From Acidimicrobiales bacterium (GTDB taxonomy: Bacteria > Actinomycetota > Acidimicrobiia > Acidimicrobiales > SKKL01): a DNA stretch of 64,000 nt. The stretch covers positions 186,001 to 250,000 of the forward strand of contig JAXHLR010000006.1 in assembly GCA_034521975.1 (NCBI GenBank), written 5' to 3'. The translations under genes and the position numbers were made by a program. Shown here in pieces: positions 5,183-38,873 of this stretch. Within the stretch, counting starts at the first letter, position 1. Each line of letters begins with the position of its first letter. Below the pieces are notes generated by a model. The model worked only from the letters and a program-made list of their open reading frames with translations, ran no database searches and was not told the DNA's origin.

Positions 5183-6544
5183 ATGCTCGAGCGCAAGCTC
5201 CGTCGACGCGCCCGGAGAGGTTGGCCCCAACGATCTGTCGAGGCCGCCCCGCCCCCGGCGCCATGGGGGATCGACTCCGAACCTCCGCGACCCATCCTCA
5301 GCGAAGGTCCGTCCGGCTCGGTCATCTACGTGGGCCGCGCTCCGGTGTTCGACCGCCGTCTGGGAGTGGCGGGGTTCCAGCTGCTCATCGACGAGTTCGA
5401 GCCCGGCTCCGCACCCGATGAGCGCCGCCCCTCCCACGACGCGCGGCGCTCGCGTCAGCTGCTCACACGGGCGTTGCTGGAGGTGGGCCTCGACAGCCTC
5501 ATCGGGGGCAAGCTCGGCTTCGTCGAGGTCCCCGTCGACGTGCTCGCCGACGGGGCGCACCTAGCCCTTCCTCCCCATCGGATGGTGCTCGAGGTCGGCG
5601 GTGAGATCGACGAGCGCGGAGTGGAGGTGCTGCGTCAGGTCCGAGCCGACGGCTACCGAGCGGTCATCGGGTCGCTGGACCGGTGCAGTGATCGGGCCGA
5701 GGCGGTCCGGTCCTGTGCCGGAATCCGGGTAGATCACCGCGACGCCGGAGCCGACGACGCCGTGGCCGAGGTGCTGAACCACACCCCTCGTGCCCAGGTG
5801 CTGGTCACCCACCTCCCCGACACCGGAGCGGTAGAACGGTGCCGCCAACTCGGCGCGACGTGGATGCGAGGCGATGTGTTGCGCCCCGCCGAGCAGATCG
5901 ACGAACCGACGGTCCCGCTGCAGCGCTTCACCGTGTTGCAGCTGCTGGCTGCGCTGGAACGCCCCGAGGTCGACTTCGACGACATCGACGACCTCGTGAG
6001 CACCGACCTGGGCATGTCCTACAAGCTGTTGCGGATGGCGAACTCGAGCTACCTCGCGCTCGAACGGCGGGTCGAGCGCACCCGTGACGCCATCGTCTAC
6101 CTGGGGATCGACACCGTGCGGGCCGCCGCCGCACTGCTCGCCCTGTCGGAGGTGACCGACCACCCGCCCGAGATCGTGCAGCTCAGCCTCATCCGGGCCC
6201 GACACTGCGAGGAGTTGGTGCGCCGACAGCATCCCGAGCTGACCCACGCCGCCTTCACCACCGGGCTGTTCTCCACCCTCGACACGCTGCTCGGACTGTC
6301 CATGGATCAGATCCTGTTGCGGATCCCCATCGCCGACCGCATCGCCGACGCCCTGCGGCACCGGGCAGGGGCGCTCGGATCCGTGCTCGAGATCGTCATC
6401 GCCTACGAGCGCGGGGACCTGGCGCGGCTCAACCTGCTCGGCGCCGACCCGTCGGCGACCGTGCTCGGCTACCGCCAGGCCCTGGCCTGGATGAACGACA
6501 TCGTGCTCGGACTCGACGGCCCTCCCCGGCTGGCCCATCGCTGA
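5183..6544 (+). CDS. HDOD-domain protein with degenerate EAL domain (YuxH-like)
   Basis: A 453-aa signalling protein of the EAL-HDOD type. After a basic, disordered N-terminus (about 1-45) comes an EAL-like fold beginning YVGRAPVFDRRLGVAGFQLL. It lacks the EAL/ExLE catalytic residues, so it should not hydrolyse c-di-GMP. The C-terminal half (about 245-440) is an HDOD domain: FTVLQLLAALERPEVD, then LGMSYKLLRMANSSYL and a helical bundle. Known relatives (YuxH, CdgJ) influence motility, and this gene faces fliA tail to tail. The ATG at 5183 has no clear ribosome binding site, so the true start is uncertain by some codons. Confidence 0.82.
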   Translation: MLERKLRRRARRGWPQRSVEAAPPPAPWGIDSEPPRPILSEGPSGSVIYVGRAPVFDRRLGVAGFQLLIDEFEPGSAPDERRPSHDARRSRQLLTRALLEVGLDSLIGGKLGFVEVPVDVLADGAHLALPPHRMVLEVGGEIDERGVEVLRQVRADGYRAVIGSLDRCSDRAEAVRSCAGIRVDHRDAGADDAVAEVLNHTPRAQVLVTHLPDTGAVERCRQLGATWMRGDVLRPAEQIDEPTVPLQRFTVLQLLAALERPEVDFDDIDDLVSTDLGMSYKLLRMANSSYLALERRVERTRDAIVYLGIDTVRAAAALLALSEVTDHPPEIVQLSLIRARHCEELVRRQHPELTHAAFTTGLFSTLDTLLGLSMDQILLRIPIADRIADALRHRAGALGSVLEIVIAYERGDLARLNLLGADPSATVLGYRQALAWMNDIVLGLDGPPRLAHR

Positions 6545-6584: not shown

Positions 6585-7484
6585 TCAGGCGCCGGCAGCC
6601 GCCGAGCTGGTCACGCTCTCGCGATCGTCGACCACCCCGTCGATGCCAAGGTTGCGCATCGACTCCACCGACCGGTTCGACGCGTCGAGCCGGGTCCGCC
6701 AGTCGGCGTGAGCGGCGACCTCGGCGGCGAAGCGGGCCTTGCGGATCGCGACGCGACCGACCGGCTTGGTCTCGGTCCCGGGTTCGTACTGGGCGTCGAT
6801 GGCATCGCGGATCATCTCGACCGCATCGGCGCGCAGCTGCGACACCCGGGACGGGGTCACGCCCAGGAACTCTGCCAGCTCCTCGAAGGATCGCTGCTCG
6901 ATGTAGTGACCGACCACCACGATGCGGTGCCGCTCGGGCAGGTGCTTCAGCGCCGCACGGAGATAGCCCTTGAGCTCTTCCTGCTCGAGGACCTCATCGG
7001 GGCTGGAGGCGCTCCGATCGACCAGTCGCTCCAGCGGGCTGGTGCCCTCATCGTCGGTCGGTCGCAGCTCGAGCGACTGAACGACACCGCGATGCACCCG
7101 TCCACGCAGCTCCTGGATCTCCGATTCGGCGACACCCAGCTCGCCGGACAACTCGGTGTCCGATGGGGTGCGGCCGGTTCGGCTGGCGAAGGCCTGGGTG
7201 GCAGCATCGGCCTGACGTGCCATCTGGCGGGTGGAGCGCGGCGCCCAGTCGGCGCTGCGAACGGCGTCGAGCACCGCGCCCCGGATCCGACGGGCGGCGT
7301 AGCGACCGAAGGGCACGCCCCGATCGGCGTCGAAGCGCAGTGCCGCCTCGACCAATCCGAGGGTGCCGGCGGCGATGAGCTCGCCACGGTCGACGTGGCG
7401 AGGAAAGCCTGCGCTCGCTCGCAGCACGAGGTGCTCGACCAGCGGAAGGTGAGAGTCGACCAGTGCTTGCTGTTCGGCGTTCAT
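6585..7484 (-). CDS. fliA: flagellar sigma factor FliA/WhiG (sigma-28 family)
   Basis: Alternative RNA polymerase sigma factor for late flagellar promoters. Region 2 is classic for the FliA/WhiG group: GTLGLVEAALRFD, GVPFGRYAARRIRGAVLD, then SADWAPRSTRQ. Region 3 and region 4 follow, with a helix-turn-helix in FEELAEFLGVTPSRVSQLR. About 60 extra C-terminal residues after region 4 have no clear role. ATG 7484 (299 aa) is chosen because GGGGAG lies 10 nt upstream; an in-frame GTG at 7520 would add 12 residues. It is the last gene of the long minus-strand flagellar run, about 230 bp after csrA. No flgM anti-sigma gene is present in the window. Confidence 0.92.
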   Translation of the reverse strand: MNAEQQALVDSHLPLVEHLVLRASAGFPRHVDRGELIAAGTLGLVEAALRFDADRGVPFGRYAARRIRGAVLDAVRSADWAPRSTRQMARQADAATQAFASRTGRTPSDTELSGELGVAESEIQELRGRVHRGVVQSLELRPTDDEGTSPLERLVDRSASSPDEVLEQEELKGYLRAALKHLPERHRIVVVGHYIEQRSFEELAEFLGVTPSRVSQLRADAVEMIRDAIDAQYEPGTETKPVGRVAIRKARFAAEVAAHADWRTRLDASNRSVESMRNLGIDGVVDDRESVTSSAAAGA

Positions 7485-7600
7485 CCTGGTGTTGCTCCCC
7501 TGCGAGTCCCGATGTTCCACGCACAGGGCATCGAGCGAACAACGCCAGAACTGGAGGGCTTTTCACGGCTCGAGCTCGAAATGATCCGCTGGCCCCATGC

Positions 7601-7711: not shown

Positions 7712-7942
7712 TCAGGACGGTCGAGGAGCGCGGGGCAGACGGCCGAGATCGTCGGAGCGCACCGTCGCCGCCGACTGGTTGGCGCGCTGGATCTCGGCGT
7801 GGACCTCCTCGCGGTGCACCGTGACGCTTCGGGGTGCATCGATCCCGAGGCGGACCTGGTCGCCCCGGATCTCGAGGACGGTGACCACCACCTCACCGCC
7901 GATGACGATCGATTCGTTGGATCGGCGTGACAGGACCAGCAT
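7712..7942 (-). CDS. csrA: carbon storage regulator CsrA
   Basis: RNA-binding translational regulator, 76 aa, working as a dimer on GGA motifs in mRNA leaders. It has the family N-terminus MLVLSRRSNESIVIG, the core RLGIDAPRSVTVHREEV with the RNA-contacting Arg44, and a C-terminal extension of about 25 residues. In Gram-positive bacteria such an extension takes part in FliW binding. The start ATG shares one base with the fliW stop (TGATG), giving translational coupling. Known circuit: FliW sequesters CsrA until flagellin is exported, and free CsrA represses flagellin translation. The flagellin leader in this window has suitable GGA sites. Confidence 0.95.
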   Translation of the reverse strand: MLVLSRRSNESIVIGGEVVVTVLEIRGDQVRLGIDAPRSVTVHREEVHAEIQRANQSAATVRSDDLGRLPRAPRPS

Positions 7943-8361
7943 CAGGCCGCCGCCAGCGGCATGCGGGCGGAGTAGTCCGAGTCGCCGAGGACGATCTGGC
8001 GTCCCTCGCGCGTGGTGGCGTTGACGATCAAGGGACCGAGAAGGTTGGCGGTGACGGCTTCGTCGCTGAAGGTGAGCAGGCACAACACGAGTGCATCGGC
8101 AGGGTCGGTGAGTCCGAGCGTCTCTTGATCGGGCATGGACAGCTCGGGTTCGTAGTCGGGGAAGAACGCCCACGGCACCGCCGCCAGGAAGGCGAGTTGC
8201 GGATCGTCGAGGGCCTGCAACCAGAAGTAGGTGCCGTCGTCGCCGGCGTCGAGGAGGGCGAAGCGACGCGCGTCGGGGAAGCCGAGCAGACCGTCGGGAA
8301 AGGTCAGGACCTTGGTGTCGTCGACCTCGACCGCGCCCAGACGTTCGGACTCAATGAGCAC
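7942..8361 (-). CDS. fliW: flagellar assembly factor FliW
   Basis: 139-aa protein that binds flagellin and CsrA in turn. FliW hallmarks are FPDGLLGFPDARRFALLD and FWLQALDDPQLAFLA, then DYEPELS and the C-terminal LGPLIVNATTREGRQIVL. Start GTG 8361 lies 6 nt after TAGGCT with no ribosome binding site, so fliW may have its own leaderless promoter within the operon. Alternatively it is coupled to the upstream gene, whose stop lies 11 bp inside fliW. The following csrA start overlaps the stop by one base. Confidence 0.95.
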   Translation of the reverse strand: MLIESERLGAVEVDDTKVLTFPDGLLGFPDARRFALLDAGDDGTYFWLQALDDPQLAFLAAVPWAFFPDYEPELSMPDQETLGLTDPADALVLCLLTFSDEAVTANLLGPLIVNATTREGRQIVLGDSDYSARMPLAAA

Positions 8362-9809: not shown

Positions 9810-11922
<2,113 letters not shown>

Positions 11923-11938
11923 CCTGGCCGAGATGAGG

Positions 11939-17320: not shown

Positions 17321-17387
17321 GGATCGGTGATCGGCGAGCGTGGGAAGCTGATGAGGGCCGACCGGCCCATTTCGAAAAGTTCGGGCG

Positions 17388-23086: not shown

Positions 23087-24133
23087 TCAACGAACTCCGT
23101 TCATGGCGGCGAGCACCTTGGGCACATAGGCCTGGGTCTCAGCGAAGGGTGGAACTCCACCGTGTCGTTGCACGGCACCGGGCCCCGCGTTGTAGGCGGC
23201 GAGCGCCAGCTCCGGGGATCCGAAGGCGTCGAGCTGGGTCCGCAGGTACCGGGCCGCGCCGTCGATGGCCTGGGCAGGGTCACGGGGATCGATCCCCAGC
23301 CCGGCGGCAGTCCCGGGCATGAACTGCATCAAGCCCTGGGCACCGGCAGAGCTGACGGCGTTGGGATCGAAGCCGGACTCGACCTGGGCGACCGCGGCCA
23401 GCAACCGAGCGTCGAGACCGTGGCGAACCGCAGCGGCGTTGAACAGCTGCGAGTACGGGACCGAGGAGACGGGCCGTGCTCCGGCGGAGGCCACGTCGAA
23501 TCCCCCACCGAAGGCTTGCACGCCCCCCGTGGGTGCGCCCGGCGCCGCCGCGCTGTAGCGGCGGATGGCGGTGATGGGACGATCGATCGGTTCGACCTTG
23601 ACCACGTCACCACGACGGGGCGCGTGGACCATCTGACCGTCGCCCAGGTAGATGGCCACGTGGTTGACCGGTTGTCCGAACGCCAGCACGTCACCCGGTC
23701 GGGCATCGGCGAGGGAGGCCACCGGCTGGCCACCGCGGGCCTGGTCCCGGCTGACGCGGGGCAGCTCCATGCCGAGGTCGCGGTGAACCCGCTGGACGAA
23801 CCCGGAGCAGTCGAGTCCCTGGTCGGGGTTGGTGCCACCCCACAAGTAGGGAACACCCAGGTACTCCATCGAACGCTGGACCACCTCGCTGCCGCGGCCG
23901 AGCGGAGCGGCCAAGCCGCGCGCCGCGAACGATCCCGACAGGCCGCCGGCCCTTGCGAGAGGACCGGCCCCGCGCGACTCCAGCTGTCCGAGAACCTGCG
24001 CGAAGCCGGTCCCGCCGACCGATCCCGTCTCACCCGCGCCGCCGGGCCGCCGCTGAGGCTGCGGGTCGAACCGGGCCCGGATGTCGTTCATGCGGGCTTC
24101 GATGGCGGCGAGGCCGCCGGTGGGTGTGGTCAT
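23087..24133 (-). CDS. NlpC/P60 endopeptidase fused to lytic transglycosylase (flagellar peptidoglycan hydrolase)
   Basis: 348-aa two-domain wall hydrolase. An NlpC/P60 domain (about 80-195) has the catalytic Cys109 in GLDCSGFVQ, His158 in VNHVAIYLGDG and His170. A soluble-lytic-transglycosylase domain (about 225-345) has Glu252 in AQVESGFDPNAVSS and the GAQGLMQFMPGTA motif, then AYNAGPGAV. No signal peptide is visible, so it may leave through the flagellar export apparatus as FlgJ does. It lies between fliJ and fliK, filling the place of FlgJ, which opens the wall for the rod. Start overlaps the fliJ stop (ATGA). Confidence 0.92.
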   Translation of the reverse strand: MTTPTGGLAAIEARMNDIRARFDPQPQRRPGGAGETGSVGGTGFAQVLGQLESRGAGPLARAGGLSGSFAARGLAAPLGRGSEVVQRSMEYLGVPYLWGGTNPDQGLDCSGFVQRVHRDLGMELPRVSRDQARGGQPVASLADARPGDVLAFGQPVNHVAIYLGDGQMVHAPRRGDVVKVEPIDRPITAIRRYSAAAPGAPTGGVQAFGGGFDVASAGARPVSSVPYSQLFNAAAVRHGLDARLLAAVAQVESGFDPNAVSSAGAQGLMQFMPGTAAGLGIDPRDPAQAIDGAARYLRTQLDAFGSPELALAAYNAGPGAVQRHGGVPPFAETQAYVPKVLAAMNGVR

Positions 24134-30396: not shown

Positions 30397-30576
30397 CAGC
30401 AGACGCCCCGGCGAGCAGAGCACATCGTTGGCATCACAGAGACCTCGCGCGAATCGATCAATCGGACTCGCCAGTCCTTGGCGATCGACCGAGCGCTCCG
30501 TGCTCGCTGCGAGGGGTCGGCGTCACCCCTCCCCCGCTGAGCCTTCGTCGCCGAATGATGCGATCGGCCCAGTTCC

Positions 30577-31515
30577 TCAGCGACCCGCCCCCTCCCAGCC
30601 CCGCTTCATGAGGATGTGGGCCAGGTCGTCGATCAGCTCGGGGAGCGCGTGGTCGATCTCCAGCTCGGGGAAGCGCACCGGTTGCCAGCCAGACATCGTC
30701 AGCTTGCGATCGCGCCGCTTGTCGCGCGCCGACTCGACCACACCGTCGTGCCAGAAGGGGTGATCGACCTCGACCGCCACCTGCCAGCGCGGCCAGGCGA
30801 GGTCCACGACGATGTCCTCACCGTTGACCAGGACGAGGGGCATGTTGACGATCGGCGCAGGCAACCCCCGACCGGTGATCGCCTCGATGACGACGAGCTC
30901 GAGGTCCGAGCGGGCGACGCCTCGCCACTCTGCCCGCGAGAGCAGCGCCTCACGGAAGATCACCGCTGCGGGACGACCGGGCTGGAACAACCGCTTCGAG
31001 GTCGCCATGAGCGTCCCAAGGGTGCAGCGCCGCTCGGCCAGCGCCTGCTCGATGGCGCTGACCGTCTTCCGACGCCCGAGCATCGCCGCGGAGTCGAAGA
31101 GCGTCCGCGGCGGGCTGGTCAAACGGATGCCGTCGGATCGCCGACCAGCCACGTCGACCGGATCGATCCGGCGGGAATGATGGATGATCAGACCGTCGAG
31201 GGTCAGCCGTGCGCCGCGAGGCAACAACACGTGGACACGGGTGTCGCGCATGCCTCGGTATCCCCATTCCTGGCCCGCGGTGGTGAAGCCGATCGCAGCC
31301 AGCGGCTGGCGGAGGCAGGCTGCCACCATCCACTGGATGCGACCCGCCGGAACCGAGGGCGAGCGATAGACCCCCGGACCCATGCGGATCAGCCGTTGCG
31401 ACGCGATCGTCCGATCGGTCTGACGGGCGGTGAACCCGAGGGTCTCGAAGTCAGCGCGAGTGATGACGCCGTGATGGGCGACCATCCACCGGTCGTACTC
31501 CAGCGGGACGGGCAC
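30577..31515 (-). CDS. AbiEi/DUF559-like protein inside the flagellar locus
   Basis: 312-aa protein of a type common in high-GC actinobacteria. The N-terminus (about 1-60) is a winged-helix resembling the AbiEi antitoxin head (VITRADFETLGFTARQTDR, RMGPGVYRSPSV). The C-terminal part (about 205-300) looks like a VSR/DUF559 nuclease-type fold, with LVNGEDIVVDLAWPRWQVAV followed by EVDHPFWHDG, then KLTMSGWQPVRF. No partner toxin gene is adjacent, so a toxin-antitoxin role is unsupported. GTG 31515 has GGGGAGG five nt upstream. It has no known flagellar function; it separates the fliC unit from the flgB unit and may be a later insertion. Confidence 0.78.
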   Translation of the reverse strand: MPVPLEYDRWMVAHHGVITRADFETLGFTARQTDRTIASQRLIRMGPGVYRSPSVPAGRIQWMVAACLRQPLAAIGFTTAGQEWGYRGMRDTRVHVLLPRGARLTLDGLIIHHSRRIDPVDVAGRRSDGIRLTSPPRTLFDSAAMLGRRKTVSAIEQALAERRCTLGTLMATSKRLFQPGRPAAVIFREALLSRAEWRGVARSDLELVVIEAITGRGLPAPIVNMPLVLVNGEDIVVDLAWPRWQVAVEVDHPFWHDGVVESARDKRRDRKLTMSGWQPVRFPELEIDHALPELIDDLAHILMKRGWEGAGR

Positions 31516-34146: not shown

Positions 34147-35337
34147 CTAGCCGAGGAGCCCGAGCACCGACTGGGGCATGGCGTTGGCCTGGCCCAGCAT
34201 GGCGGTGCCGGCCTGCTGCAGGATCTGGTGCCGGGTGAACTGCACCATCTCGAGGGCCATGTCGGTGTCGCGGATGCGGGACTCCGAGGCAGCCAGGTTC
34301 TCGGTGGTGACCTGCAGGTTGTTGACCGTCGACTCGAAGCGGTTCTGGACCGCACCGAGGTCACCACGAAGGGCGGAGACGTCGTTGATCGCGCCGTCGA
34401 TGAAGTCGATGGCGTTCTCGGCGTCGTTCTCGACGTCGATGCCGCCGACACCGAGGGTGGTGGCGTCGACGCCACCGATCGCAACCTCGATCGTCTCGCC
34501 CTTGTTGGCGCCGACCTGGAACTTGGCAGCATCGCCAGCAGCGGCATCGATGTCGCCGGGGCTGATGCCGAGATCCGCGAGGGCAGTGTCGGTTCCGGAG
34601 TCAGCGAGCGTGAAGGTCTCGGTGTCGCCGAGCCCCCCGATTTCGAGGGTGAGGCTAGAGCCAGCACCAACGGTCTCGCCGGAGACCGACACCTTGTCGG
34701 TGAAGGCCTGGGCATCGGCGTTGCCACTGGCGGCGAGCGCCGACTTGATCGCGGTCTCCAGCGCGGCTGCAGCTGTCTCGACGTCGTCGCCAGCGAGGGC
34801 GGACATCGATACCGTGACCGCGCCGGTCCCGTTGATGTTGATCGTGAACTCGTGACCAGCGGTGGTCGTATAGGCACCATCGGCATCGAGTCCGGTGACG
34901 CTCGCGGGGGTCGAGCCGAAGCTGCCGTCGAGCAGCTTCTGCGAACCGAACTTGGTCGAATCCGCGATGCGGTCGATCTCGGCGGAAAGCTGGTCGATCT
35001 CTGCCTGGGCCGCCGCACGGGCGTCGCTGTCGTTCGAGGCGTTGGAGGCCTGCACGGCCAGGTCACGCATGCGGTTGAGCATGCTGTGGACCTCGTTGAG
35101 GGCGCCTTCTGCGGTCTGCACGACCGAGATGCCGTCCTGGGCGTTGCGGGTGGCCTGGCGAAGACCCGAGACCTGCGCACGCAGACCCTGGCTGATCACG
35201 AGGCCGGCAGCGTCGTCGGCCGCCCGGTTGATGCGGAAGCCCGACGAGAGCTTCTCGAGGCTCTTGCCCATGACGTTGTTCGTCTGGGACAGGTTCCGGT
35301 ACGAGTTGAACGCTGCGATGTTCTGGTTGATCCTCAT
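34147..35337 (-). CDS. fliC: flagellin
   Basis: 396-aa filament subunit. The D0/D1 ends are strongly conserved: MRINQNIAAFNSYRNLSQTN, KLSSGFRINRAADDAAGLVI at the start; SRIRDTDMALEMVQFTRHQI and QQAGTAMLGQANAMPQSVLG at the end. The middle (about 165-300) is a variable Ala/Gly/Thr-rich surface domain. ATG 35337 is fixed by AAGGAGGAA 10 nt upstream and by the conserved MRINQN start. It is the only flagellin in the window. Its leader holds possible CsrA sites and a FliA-type promoter candidate (listed separately). Confidence 0.97.
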   Translation of the reverse strand: MRINQNIAAFNSYRNLSQTNNVMGKSLEKLSSGFRINRAADDAAGLVISQGLRAQVSGLRQATRNAQDGISVVQTAEGALNEVHSMLNRMRDLAVQASNASNDSDARAAAQAEIDQLSAEIDRIADSTKFGSQKLLDGSFGSTPASVTGLDADGAYTTTAGHEFTININGTGAVTVSMSALAGDDVETAAAALETAIKSALAASGNADAQAFTDKVSVSGETVGAGSSLTLEIGGLGDTETFTLADSGTDTALADLGISPGDIDAAAGDAAKFQVGANKGETIEVAIGGVDATTLGVGGIDVENDAENAIDFIDGAINDVSALRGDLGAVQNRFESTVNNLQVTTENLAASESRIRDTDMALEMVQFTRHQILQQAGTAMLGQANAMPQSVLGLLG

Positions 35338-35338
35338 T

Positions 35339-35366
35339 GTTCCGTCTTCCTCCTTGAATGTGGAAC
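35339..35366 (-). promoter_or_regulatory. flagellin leader: Shine-Dalgarno in a hairpin loop, possible CsrA site
   Basis: On the mRNA, GTTCC (35366-35362) can pair with GGAAC (35343-35339), leaving AAGGAGGAA in an 18-nt loop. CsrA prefers GGA in loops, and three GGA triplets lie in this interval, one of them the Shine-Dalgarno itself. This fits the known FliW-CsrA-flagellin circuit; binding is inferred. Confidence 0.5.
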
Positions 35367-35440
35367 TCGGTACCAACCCATGTGGAGCTGGGACCTACCG
35401 CTTCCTGCGGCAGGCGATCGATCGGACCGGCCGAGGGGCC

Positions 35441-35465
35441 GATGAGGCTTCGCCCGCGAATTTCC
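35441..35465 (-). promoter_or_regulatory. bipartite motif directed at fliC (copy 1)
   Basis: Minus strand GGAAATTCGCG, 4 nt, AAGCCTCATC; its downstream end is 103 nt before the flagellin start. The same two half-elements recur inverted at 35534-35561 facing flgN, so this is probably a shared sigma-factor or regulator site. Confidence 0.55.
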
Positions 35466-35533
35466 GCGCCGGCCACCGAGAATGGTTCACCTGGCCCAGT
35501 CCGCGCGCATCGTGGTCGACCGATCCCGTAGGG

Positions 35534-35561
35534 GGAGATTCGCGACGACGAAAGCCTCATC
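35534..35561 (+). promoter_or_regulatory. bipartite motif directed at flgN-flgK-flgL (copy 2)
   Basis: Plus strand GGAGATTCGCG, 7 nt, AAGCCTCATC; it ends 29 nt before the flgN start. Ten of 11 bases of the first half and all 10 of the second match copy 1. The spacer differs by 3 nt. Confidence 0.55.
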
Positions 35562-35590
35562 ACCGCGGCGTCGCTGCCGAACGGTCCGTC

Positions 35591-36100
35591 ATGGCCCCCT
35601 CTGCCGTCGCCGACCGCCTGAGCACGCTCAGCCAGACCCTGTGGCGACAGCGCGCCCTGGTCGAGGTGCTGCTCTACCGTCTCGAGGTCCAGCAGATGGT
35701 CCTCGCCGCCGGCAAGTCGCGCTGGATCGACATGTCGGCCCGCGACGTCGAGGATGCCATCGACGGCCTCCGCTCCGAAGAGCTCGTCCGGGCCACGTCG
35801 GTGGCTGGGGTCGCACCCCTGTTGAAGGTGCCCGAGACCGCGAGCCTGACCGAGCTGGCCGTCGCCGCCGGCGAACCGTGGGACCAGATCCTTCGCGATC
35901 ACCAGGCGGCGTTCCTGTCGCTGATCGCATCGGTCGAGGCGGTGAGCCGGGACAACCGGGAGCTGCTCAACCACGGGTTGCGTGACACCCACGACTTCTT
36001 GTCGAGGGTGGCCAGCGCGCCCGGCAACGACGGCTACTCGGTGGAAGGCACCAGCACCCGACAGCTCGCCAAGCCCACCCTCATCGACTGGGACGTCTGA
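35591..36100 (+). CDS. flgN: FlgN-like export chaperone
   Basis: 169-aa helical protein placed directly before flgK, with its stop sharing one base with the flgK start. The helices (LSTLSQTLWRQRALVEVLLY, RLEVQQMVLAAGKSRWIDM) and an acidic middle fit the FlgN fold, which binds FlgK and FlgL before export. Sequence similarity in this family is always weak, so position is the main support. ATG 35591 lies 29 nt after motif copy 2. Confidence 0.78.
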   Translation: MAPSAVADRLSTLSQTLWRQRALVEVLLYRLEVQQMVLAAGKSRWIDMSARDVEDAIDGLRSEELVRATSVAGVAPLLKVPETASLTELAVAAGEPWDQILRDHQAAFLSLIASVEAVSRDNRELLNHGLRDTHDFLSRVASAPGNDGYSVEGTSTRQLAKPTLIDWDV

Positions 36101-38435: not shown

Positions 38436-38510
38436 ACCTGGGCGTTCGCCCTCATCAGGACCCGCTCACCGCCGACCCACCAGCCAGTTCCTCGAACCTC
38501 GGGAGTCGTC

Positions 38511-38873
38511 GTGAACATCCTCGTCGTGGACGACAGCAAGACCATCCGCATGCTGGTGAAGCGCAACCTCAAGCAGGCCGGGTTCGACCACGCCACGATG
38601 TTCGAGGCCGAGGACGGCCCGTCCGGGCTCGAGGTCGCCCGTGCCGAGCCGCTGGATCTCATCCTGTCGGACTGGAACATGCCCGAGATGAGCGGACTGG
38701 CCTTCCTCCAGGCACTGCGTGACGAAGGGTTCGACACCACCTTCGGGTTCATCACCTCCGAGTCCACCCCGTCCTACCGCGACCAGGCGCTGTCCGCCGG
38801 TGCTGCCTTCCTGCTGTCGAAGCCGTTCAACGCGGAGGCCTTCGCCGACGCGCTCGCCGTCGCCACCACGTGA
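38511..38873 (+). CDS. cheY: CheY-like single-domain response regulator
   Basis: 120-aa receiver domain without an output domain. All signalling residues are in place: Asp7 and Asp8 (NILVVDDSK), phospho-acceptor Asp54 (LILSDWNMPEMSG), Thr82 (FITSES) and Lys104 (FLLSKPF). It should bind FliM when phosphorylated. No cheA histidine kinase is in the window, so the phosphate source is elsewhere. GTG 38511; its stop overlaps the next gene (GTGA). Confidence 0.9.
   Translation: MNILVVDDSKTIRMLVKRNLKQAGFDHATMFEAEDGPSGLEVARAEPLDLILSDWNMPEMSGLAFLQALRDEGFDTTFGFITSESTPSYRDQALSAGAAFLLSKPFNAEAFADALAVATT

Follow-up and report, generated by a model that had tools for sequence, protein, structure and literature searches.

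The inverted motifs located between fliC and flgN in the flagellar cluster of an Acidimicrobiales bacterium are, in all probability, two divergent FliA-type promoters of the actinobacterial form and not a new two-part signal, as judged from the sequence of a 64,000-nt stretch (hereafter the window) and of related genomes. They share the general layout CTCA-N16-NCCGA(A/T), which reads CTCA-N16-GCCGAA before flgN and CTCA-N16-TCCGAT before fliC (Table 1). The same FliA-family sigma factor would switch on both divergent operons together. The + strand promoter is predicted to drive flgN-flgK-flgL, with a transcript whose first base would be the A of the start codon of flgN (ATG, 35591), and the - strand promoter would drive fliC, probably then fliD and fliS, from a predicted start at 35411.

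Elements, conservation and spread of the probable promoter pair

The first-pass annotation had described two inverted copies of a bipartite motif, the letters of which are real: on the + strand, GGAGATTCGCG is separated by 7 nt from AAGCCTCATC (35552-35561) and, on the - strand, GGAAATTCGCG is separated by 4 nt from AAGCCTCATC (35450-35441), each copy being oriented toward its own operon and either half having two copies in the window. The partition of the motif is wrong: AAGCCTCATC contains the -35 element (CTCA), the true partner of which is the -10 element found downstream. No resemblance to GCCGATAA had been seen, but GCCGAA (flgN) and TCCGAT (fliC) lie 16 nt downstream of CTCA. A copy of GATTCGCG near flgB, put forward as a recurrence, is indeed present (30448-30455, - strand); since this 8-mer has 2 copies versus 4.9 expected by chance, it carries no weight as support.

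The consensus of sigma-28 (FliA/SigD/WhiG) promoters is TAAAGTTT-n11-GCCGATAA. Its GCCGA -10 core is intact before flgN, whereas the -10 element of fliC (TCCGAT, or CCCGAT in the relatives) is a weaker match with one core mismatch. The canonical -35 TAAA is found at neither promoter, CTCA being present at both of them and in the relatives. CTCA and GCCGA are 16 nt apart here and 16 or 17 nt apart among the relatives' matches listed, versus about 15 nt after the canonical TAAA. Taken as a whole, the promoters resemble those of sigma-28 by their GCCGA core, their similar spacing, their location before flagellin, hook-associated, motor and chemoreceptor genes and the presence of a FliA-family sigma gene in the cluster. 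They differ by CTCA in place of TAAA, by a spacer 1 nt longer than in the E. coli consensus (PMC2859248) and by the many starts that are predicted on the start codon. The earlier suggestion of a lineage-specific FliA promoter was right in kind, with a -35 that is CTCA and not TAAA; the form runs through flagellated actinobacteria.

Two genomes of the same family carry the locus (G002 and G003), with fliC and flgN likewise divergent; neither gene was detected in the same-genus genome G001. Alignment of the three species revealed conserved blocks on the flgN side (CCTCATC and GCCGAAC) and on the fliC side (CGAAnCCTCAT, CCGATC, the leader hairpin and the ribosome-binding region). Within the source genome, promoters of the actinobacterial CTCA type (CTCA-N15-17-NCCGA before flagellar genes) precede fliC, flgN, fliM, flhA and a CheY-like gene, and those of fliM, flhA and an HDOD gene are also present in relatives. 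Besides the genes listed in Table 1, the identities of the FliD and FlgK genes were confirmed by profile matches. A search of Rfam over the fliC-flgN spacer gave no family and a single chance sub-threshold match.

Table 1. Genes, promoter elements and other features of the window (strand given for each)
Feature	Position	Strand	Remarks
FliA-family sigma gene, candidate reader of the promoters	6585..7487	-	TIGR02479 4e-54, slightly below cut-off; recognition helix ..TPSRVSQLR..
csrA	7712..7945	-	Pfam CsrA 2.7e-25
fliW	7942..8361	-	NCBIfam FliW 1.9e-38
CTCA-type promoter upstream of flhA	11913..11937	-	Orthologous site in G002 (L177)
CTCA-type promoter, predicted leaderless, before fliM (GTG 17320)	17331..17355	-	Orthologous promoters in G002 and G003
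fliC (flagellin)	34147..35340	-	ATG at 35340, ribosome-binding site GGAGGAA; NCBIfam flagellin 2e-82
5'-terminal hairpin GCCGC-AGGAA-GCGGT of the predicted fliC mRNA	35397..35411	-	CsrA-like, AGGA in loop; kept in three species
-10 TCCGAT of the fliC promoter, 16 nt past CTCA	35421..35426	-	CCCGAT in relatives
-35 CTCA (inside CGAAGCCTCATC) of the fliC promoter	35443..35446	-	ATGAGG.TTCG (+ strand) invariant in three species
GGAAATTCGCG, upstream half for fliC, about -54 to -44	35455..35465	-	A/T-bearing patch, unconserved
GGAGATTCGCG, upstream half for flgN, about -57 to -47	35534..35544	+	A/T-bearing patch, unconserved
-35 CTCA (inside CGAAAGCCTCATC) of the flgN-flgK-flgL promoter	35556..35559	+	CCTCATC invariant in three species; geometry of the leaderless set
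-10 GCCGAA of the flgN promoter, 16 nt past CTCA	35576..35581	+	GCCGAAC invariant in three species
flgN	35591..36100	+	Pfam FlgN 3.3e-13; ATG 35591 is the predicted leaderless transcription start
CTCATC-N14-GCCGA promoter upstream of the receiver-domain (CheY-like) gene at 38511	38451..38475	+	

This form was sought upstream of 36 non-redundant flagellin genes from outside the window, mostly actinobacterial. CTCA-N14-17-NCCGA was found in 18 of these regions, including loci from Nocardioidaceae, Geodermatophilus and Cellulomonas; the corresponding figures are 1.25 for dinucleotide shuffles (never above 4) and 2 for the reverse strand. The other half have no clear CTCA-type match. Canonical promoters were considered and rejected for this set, TAAA replacing CTCA in only 1 of the 36 regions. 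The excess of 18 over 1.25 indicates that the promoter form is spread through flagellated actinobacteria and is not special to the source genome. In Actinoplanes missouriensis, the FliA-type promoters reportedly read CTCA-N15-17-GCCGAA, according to work attributed to Jang et al. in 2016. If this consensus is right, the -35 and -10 cores and the spacing are the same in the present bacterium, which belongs to a different class, Acidimicrobiia.

Some other genes of the flagellar cluster were also noted. One of them (30577-31515, - strand), the matches of which are weak and AbiEi-like or DUF559/MTES_1575 nuclease-like, is oddly located between flgB and the end of the cluster that carries fliS. 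Another one (23087-24133, - strand) has a product in which NlpC/P60 and transglycosylase (SLT) domains are combined; the product of L208 in G003 has a similar N-terminus but carries a VanY peptidase domain, and its gene has a CTCA-type promoter. Beside the FliA gene, a 453-aa open frame (5183-6544, + strand) has no NCBIfam match.

The upstream half of the reported motif

Among the upstream regions of orthologous fliC and flgN in the two same-family relatives, CCTCATC is kept and GGARATTCGCG is absent. The 3.3-Mb genome contains three copies of the latter, two in the spacer and one in a coding sequence (contig C3). When at most 3 mismatches are allowed, 5 of 20 other flagellin promoters contain it, which is no enrichment over shuffles (5.29). 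GGARATTCGCG was rejected as a regulon motif, being missing from the other FliA-type promoters of the genome and from the relatives, with a third copy that is coding.

The A+T content of 20 other promoters is 0.47 at -20..-11 from CTCA versus 0.27 further up, in a zone that was partly picked post hoc; likewise, the Wilcoxon p value of 0.0005 for A/T at -28..-11 from CTCA concerns a region partly picked after the data were seen. As GGARATT falls at this A/T-rich patch of many CTCA promoters, it would be at most an UP-like, non-specific A/T-rich contact of the alpha C-terminal domain, or a product of chance; UP elements are A/T-rich DNA located at about -40 to -60. That the two upstream halves resemble each other by chance and have no function is a serious possibility, which we nonetheless judge slightly short of probable. 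The chance rate of a 10/11 match at a similar distance is 0.45% for shuffled pairs and 1.4% for pairs of 40-mers drawn at random from the window. This rate holds for a pair chosen beforehand, whereas this unconserved motif was picked freely from 64 kb. The location of the half in the -20..-11 zone that is A/T-rich in the 20 other promoters, partly post hoc as it is, would rather fit the UP-like role. It is very unlikely that GGARATTCGCG is an activator site that serves the two promoters at about -49 and -52, like that of CRP at -49.5 on the E. coli sigma-28 promoter of aer (PMC2859248): two near-identical copies (10/11) do lie in one spacer, out of a genome total of three, but neither conservation nor recurrence supports such a site, and the distance to the -35 differs by 3 nt between the copies. 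A role confined to this species is conceivable.

Start-codon spacing and the leader of fliC

The more interesting by-products of the analysis are a predicted regulon locked on its start codons and a CsrA-like hairpin at the predicted 5' end of the fliC mRNA. G002 and G003 were scanned for CTCA-N16-GCCGA followed by ATG or GTG within 28 nt. Start-codon triplets are found 28 times at offset 10, whereas the other offsets average 3.8 and never exceed 9. A coding origin of this signal was considered and rejected: the in-frame offsets 1, 4, 7, 13 and 16 give 7, 3, 3, 1 and 3, i.e., in-frame neighbours are not raised to the same extent, and codon phasing therefore does not explain offset 10. The start codon of flgN is exactly 10 nt past GCCGA. 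In this geometry, CTCA occupies -35..-32, GCCGA -15..-11 and ATG or GTG +1; because the promoter geometry places the start codon at +1, leaderless mRNAs are predicted.

The full leaderless pattern occurs 8 times in the source genome (G000), 16 times in G002 and 15 times in G003, and the reversed control never does. The motility-type genes so placed are flgN, fliM, two chemoreceptor genes (MCPsignal), five GGDEF, two EAL and one HDOD; the other matches, some of them inside ORFs, reflect chance or have no link to motility, as before short frames or the genes of an ABC transporter and a trypsin-like protein. We know of no such exact locking of +1 and start codon across the regulon in the work on Actinoplanes missouriensis. 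The promoters of Rubrobacter WhiG were searched as TAAA-GCCGATAA (PMC8325347). FliA/WhiG-family promoters precede GGDEF/EAL genes in both organisms, but the -35 here is CTCA and flagellar genes are included, unlike in the Rubrobacter WhiG regulon (PMC8325347).

Over 118 genomes of the order, the pattern has 384 sites versus 127 in controls, and 13 genomes have at least 8 sites (highest control, 5). It tracks the presence of flagellin only in part among these genomes: G005, G022, G030 and G107 harbor 13-23 sites, yet no flagellin of the fliC type was detected in them. Such site-rich genomes suggest that another sigma factor of the FliA family may also use the CTCA form. Pili or cyclic-di-GMP signalling could use the leaderless pattern in these genomes without detected fliC-type flagellin.

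The predicted fliC mRNA would instead carry a leader of about 71 nt. Its predicted +1 is a purine in all three species and coincides with the base that opens the hairpin, [G/A]CCGC-AGGAA-GCGGT, which would reach 35393-35415 if transcription began a few nt earlier. The fold of a 77-nt stretch holding this hairpin gives z = -3.1. The sequence features of a CsrA leader are all found: an ANGGA-loop hairpin, a second GGA at the ribosome-binding site and a csrA gene in the genome. Of the 36 other flagellin leaders, 22 contain a GGA-loop hairpin, whereas shuffles yield 2.07, and csrA and fliW adjoin each other at 7712-8361, in the same flagellar cluster as fliC. Taken together, the hairpin, its frequency in flagellin leaders and the adjacent csrA and fliW genes make a CsrA/FliW check on flagellin translation likely. 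The leader of hag, the flagellin gene of Bacillus subtilis, is under CsrA-FliW control. As in hag, a leader hairpin with a GGA loop, a second GGA at the ribosome-binding site and csrA together with fliW are found here; in contrast to hag, the predicted hairpin is the very 5' end of the mRNA, and the CsrA site is putative.

Candidate sigma factors and implications for the proposed regulon

Three sigma factors of the FliA/WhiG family are encoded by the genome and kept in the family, i.e., the FliA of the flagellar cluster, a FliA-like paralogue (contig C3) and a WhiG-like protein (contig C4). The region 4.2 helix reads ..SR[VI]SQLR.. in both FliA-like proteins and ..SR[VI]CQIH.. in the WhiG-like one, versus QIH and QLH in the solved WhiG and FliA sequences, respectively. 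The two FliA-like sigma factors have Arg where canonical FliA and WhiG carry His. This replacement goes with that of TAAA by CTCA, as a correlation only between the sequences. The FlgM anti-sigma factor was not found in G000, G002 and G003 by a search of which the control works, and was rejected as a regulator in these three genomes.

It is rather unlikely that the promoters, real as they would be, are read by the C3 paralogue or the C4 WhiG-like sigma factor and not by the cluster FliA. In favour of such a reading, all three sigma factors are maintained in the family, a QLR recognition helix is common to the C3 paralogue and the cluster FliA, the former being the better conserved of the two, and some relatives in which no fliC-type flagellin was detected have many leaderless sites. 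However, the gene of the cluster FliA adjoins csrA-fliW within the flagellar gene cluster, and the WhiG-like protein retains the canonical QIH helix, as in sigma factors that read TAAA.

With the cluster FliA as the preferred candidate, we are inclined to propose, with modest confidence, that the family possesses a regulon in which +1 falls on the start codon (flgN, fliM, chemoreceptors, cyclic-di-GMP enzymes and HDOD) alongside a fliC with a CsrA-hairpin leader. A single sigma factor would thus command a CsrA-blind arm and a CsrA-controlled arm, its preference for CTCA going with Arg in place of His in region 4.2. After the joint switch-on of the two operons, CsrA/FliW acting on the leader would adjust flagellin synthesis only.

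To our knowledge, little transcript mapping has been carried out in Acidimicrobiia. What was a puzzling motif yields here a rule by which motility and cyclic-di-GMP genes can be found in this class. The data suggest that the regulon is largely translated without leaders, flagellin alone being under leader control, and that a specific residue of region 4.2 may account for the altered -35 preference of actinobacterial FliA. The back-to-back layout of the promoters would allow the flagellin gene and the neighbouring operon to be switched on together in this little-studied bacterium.
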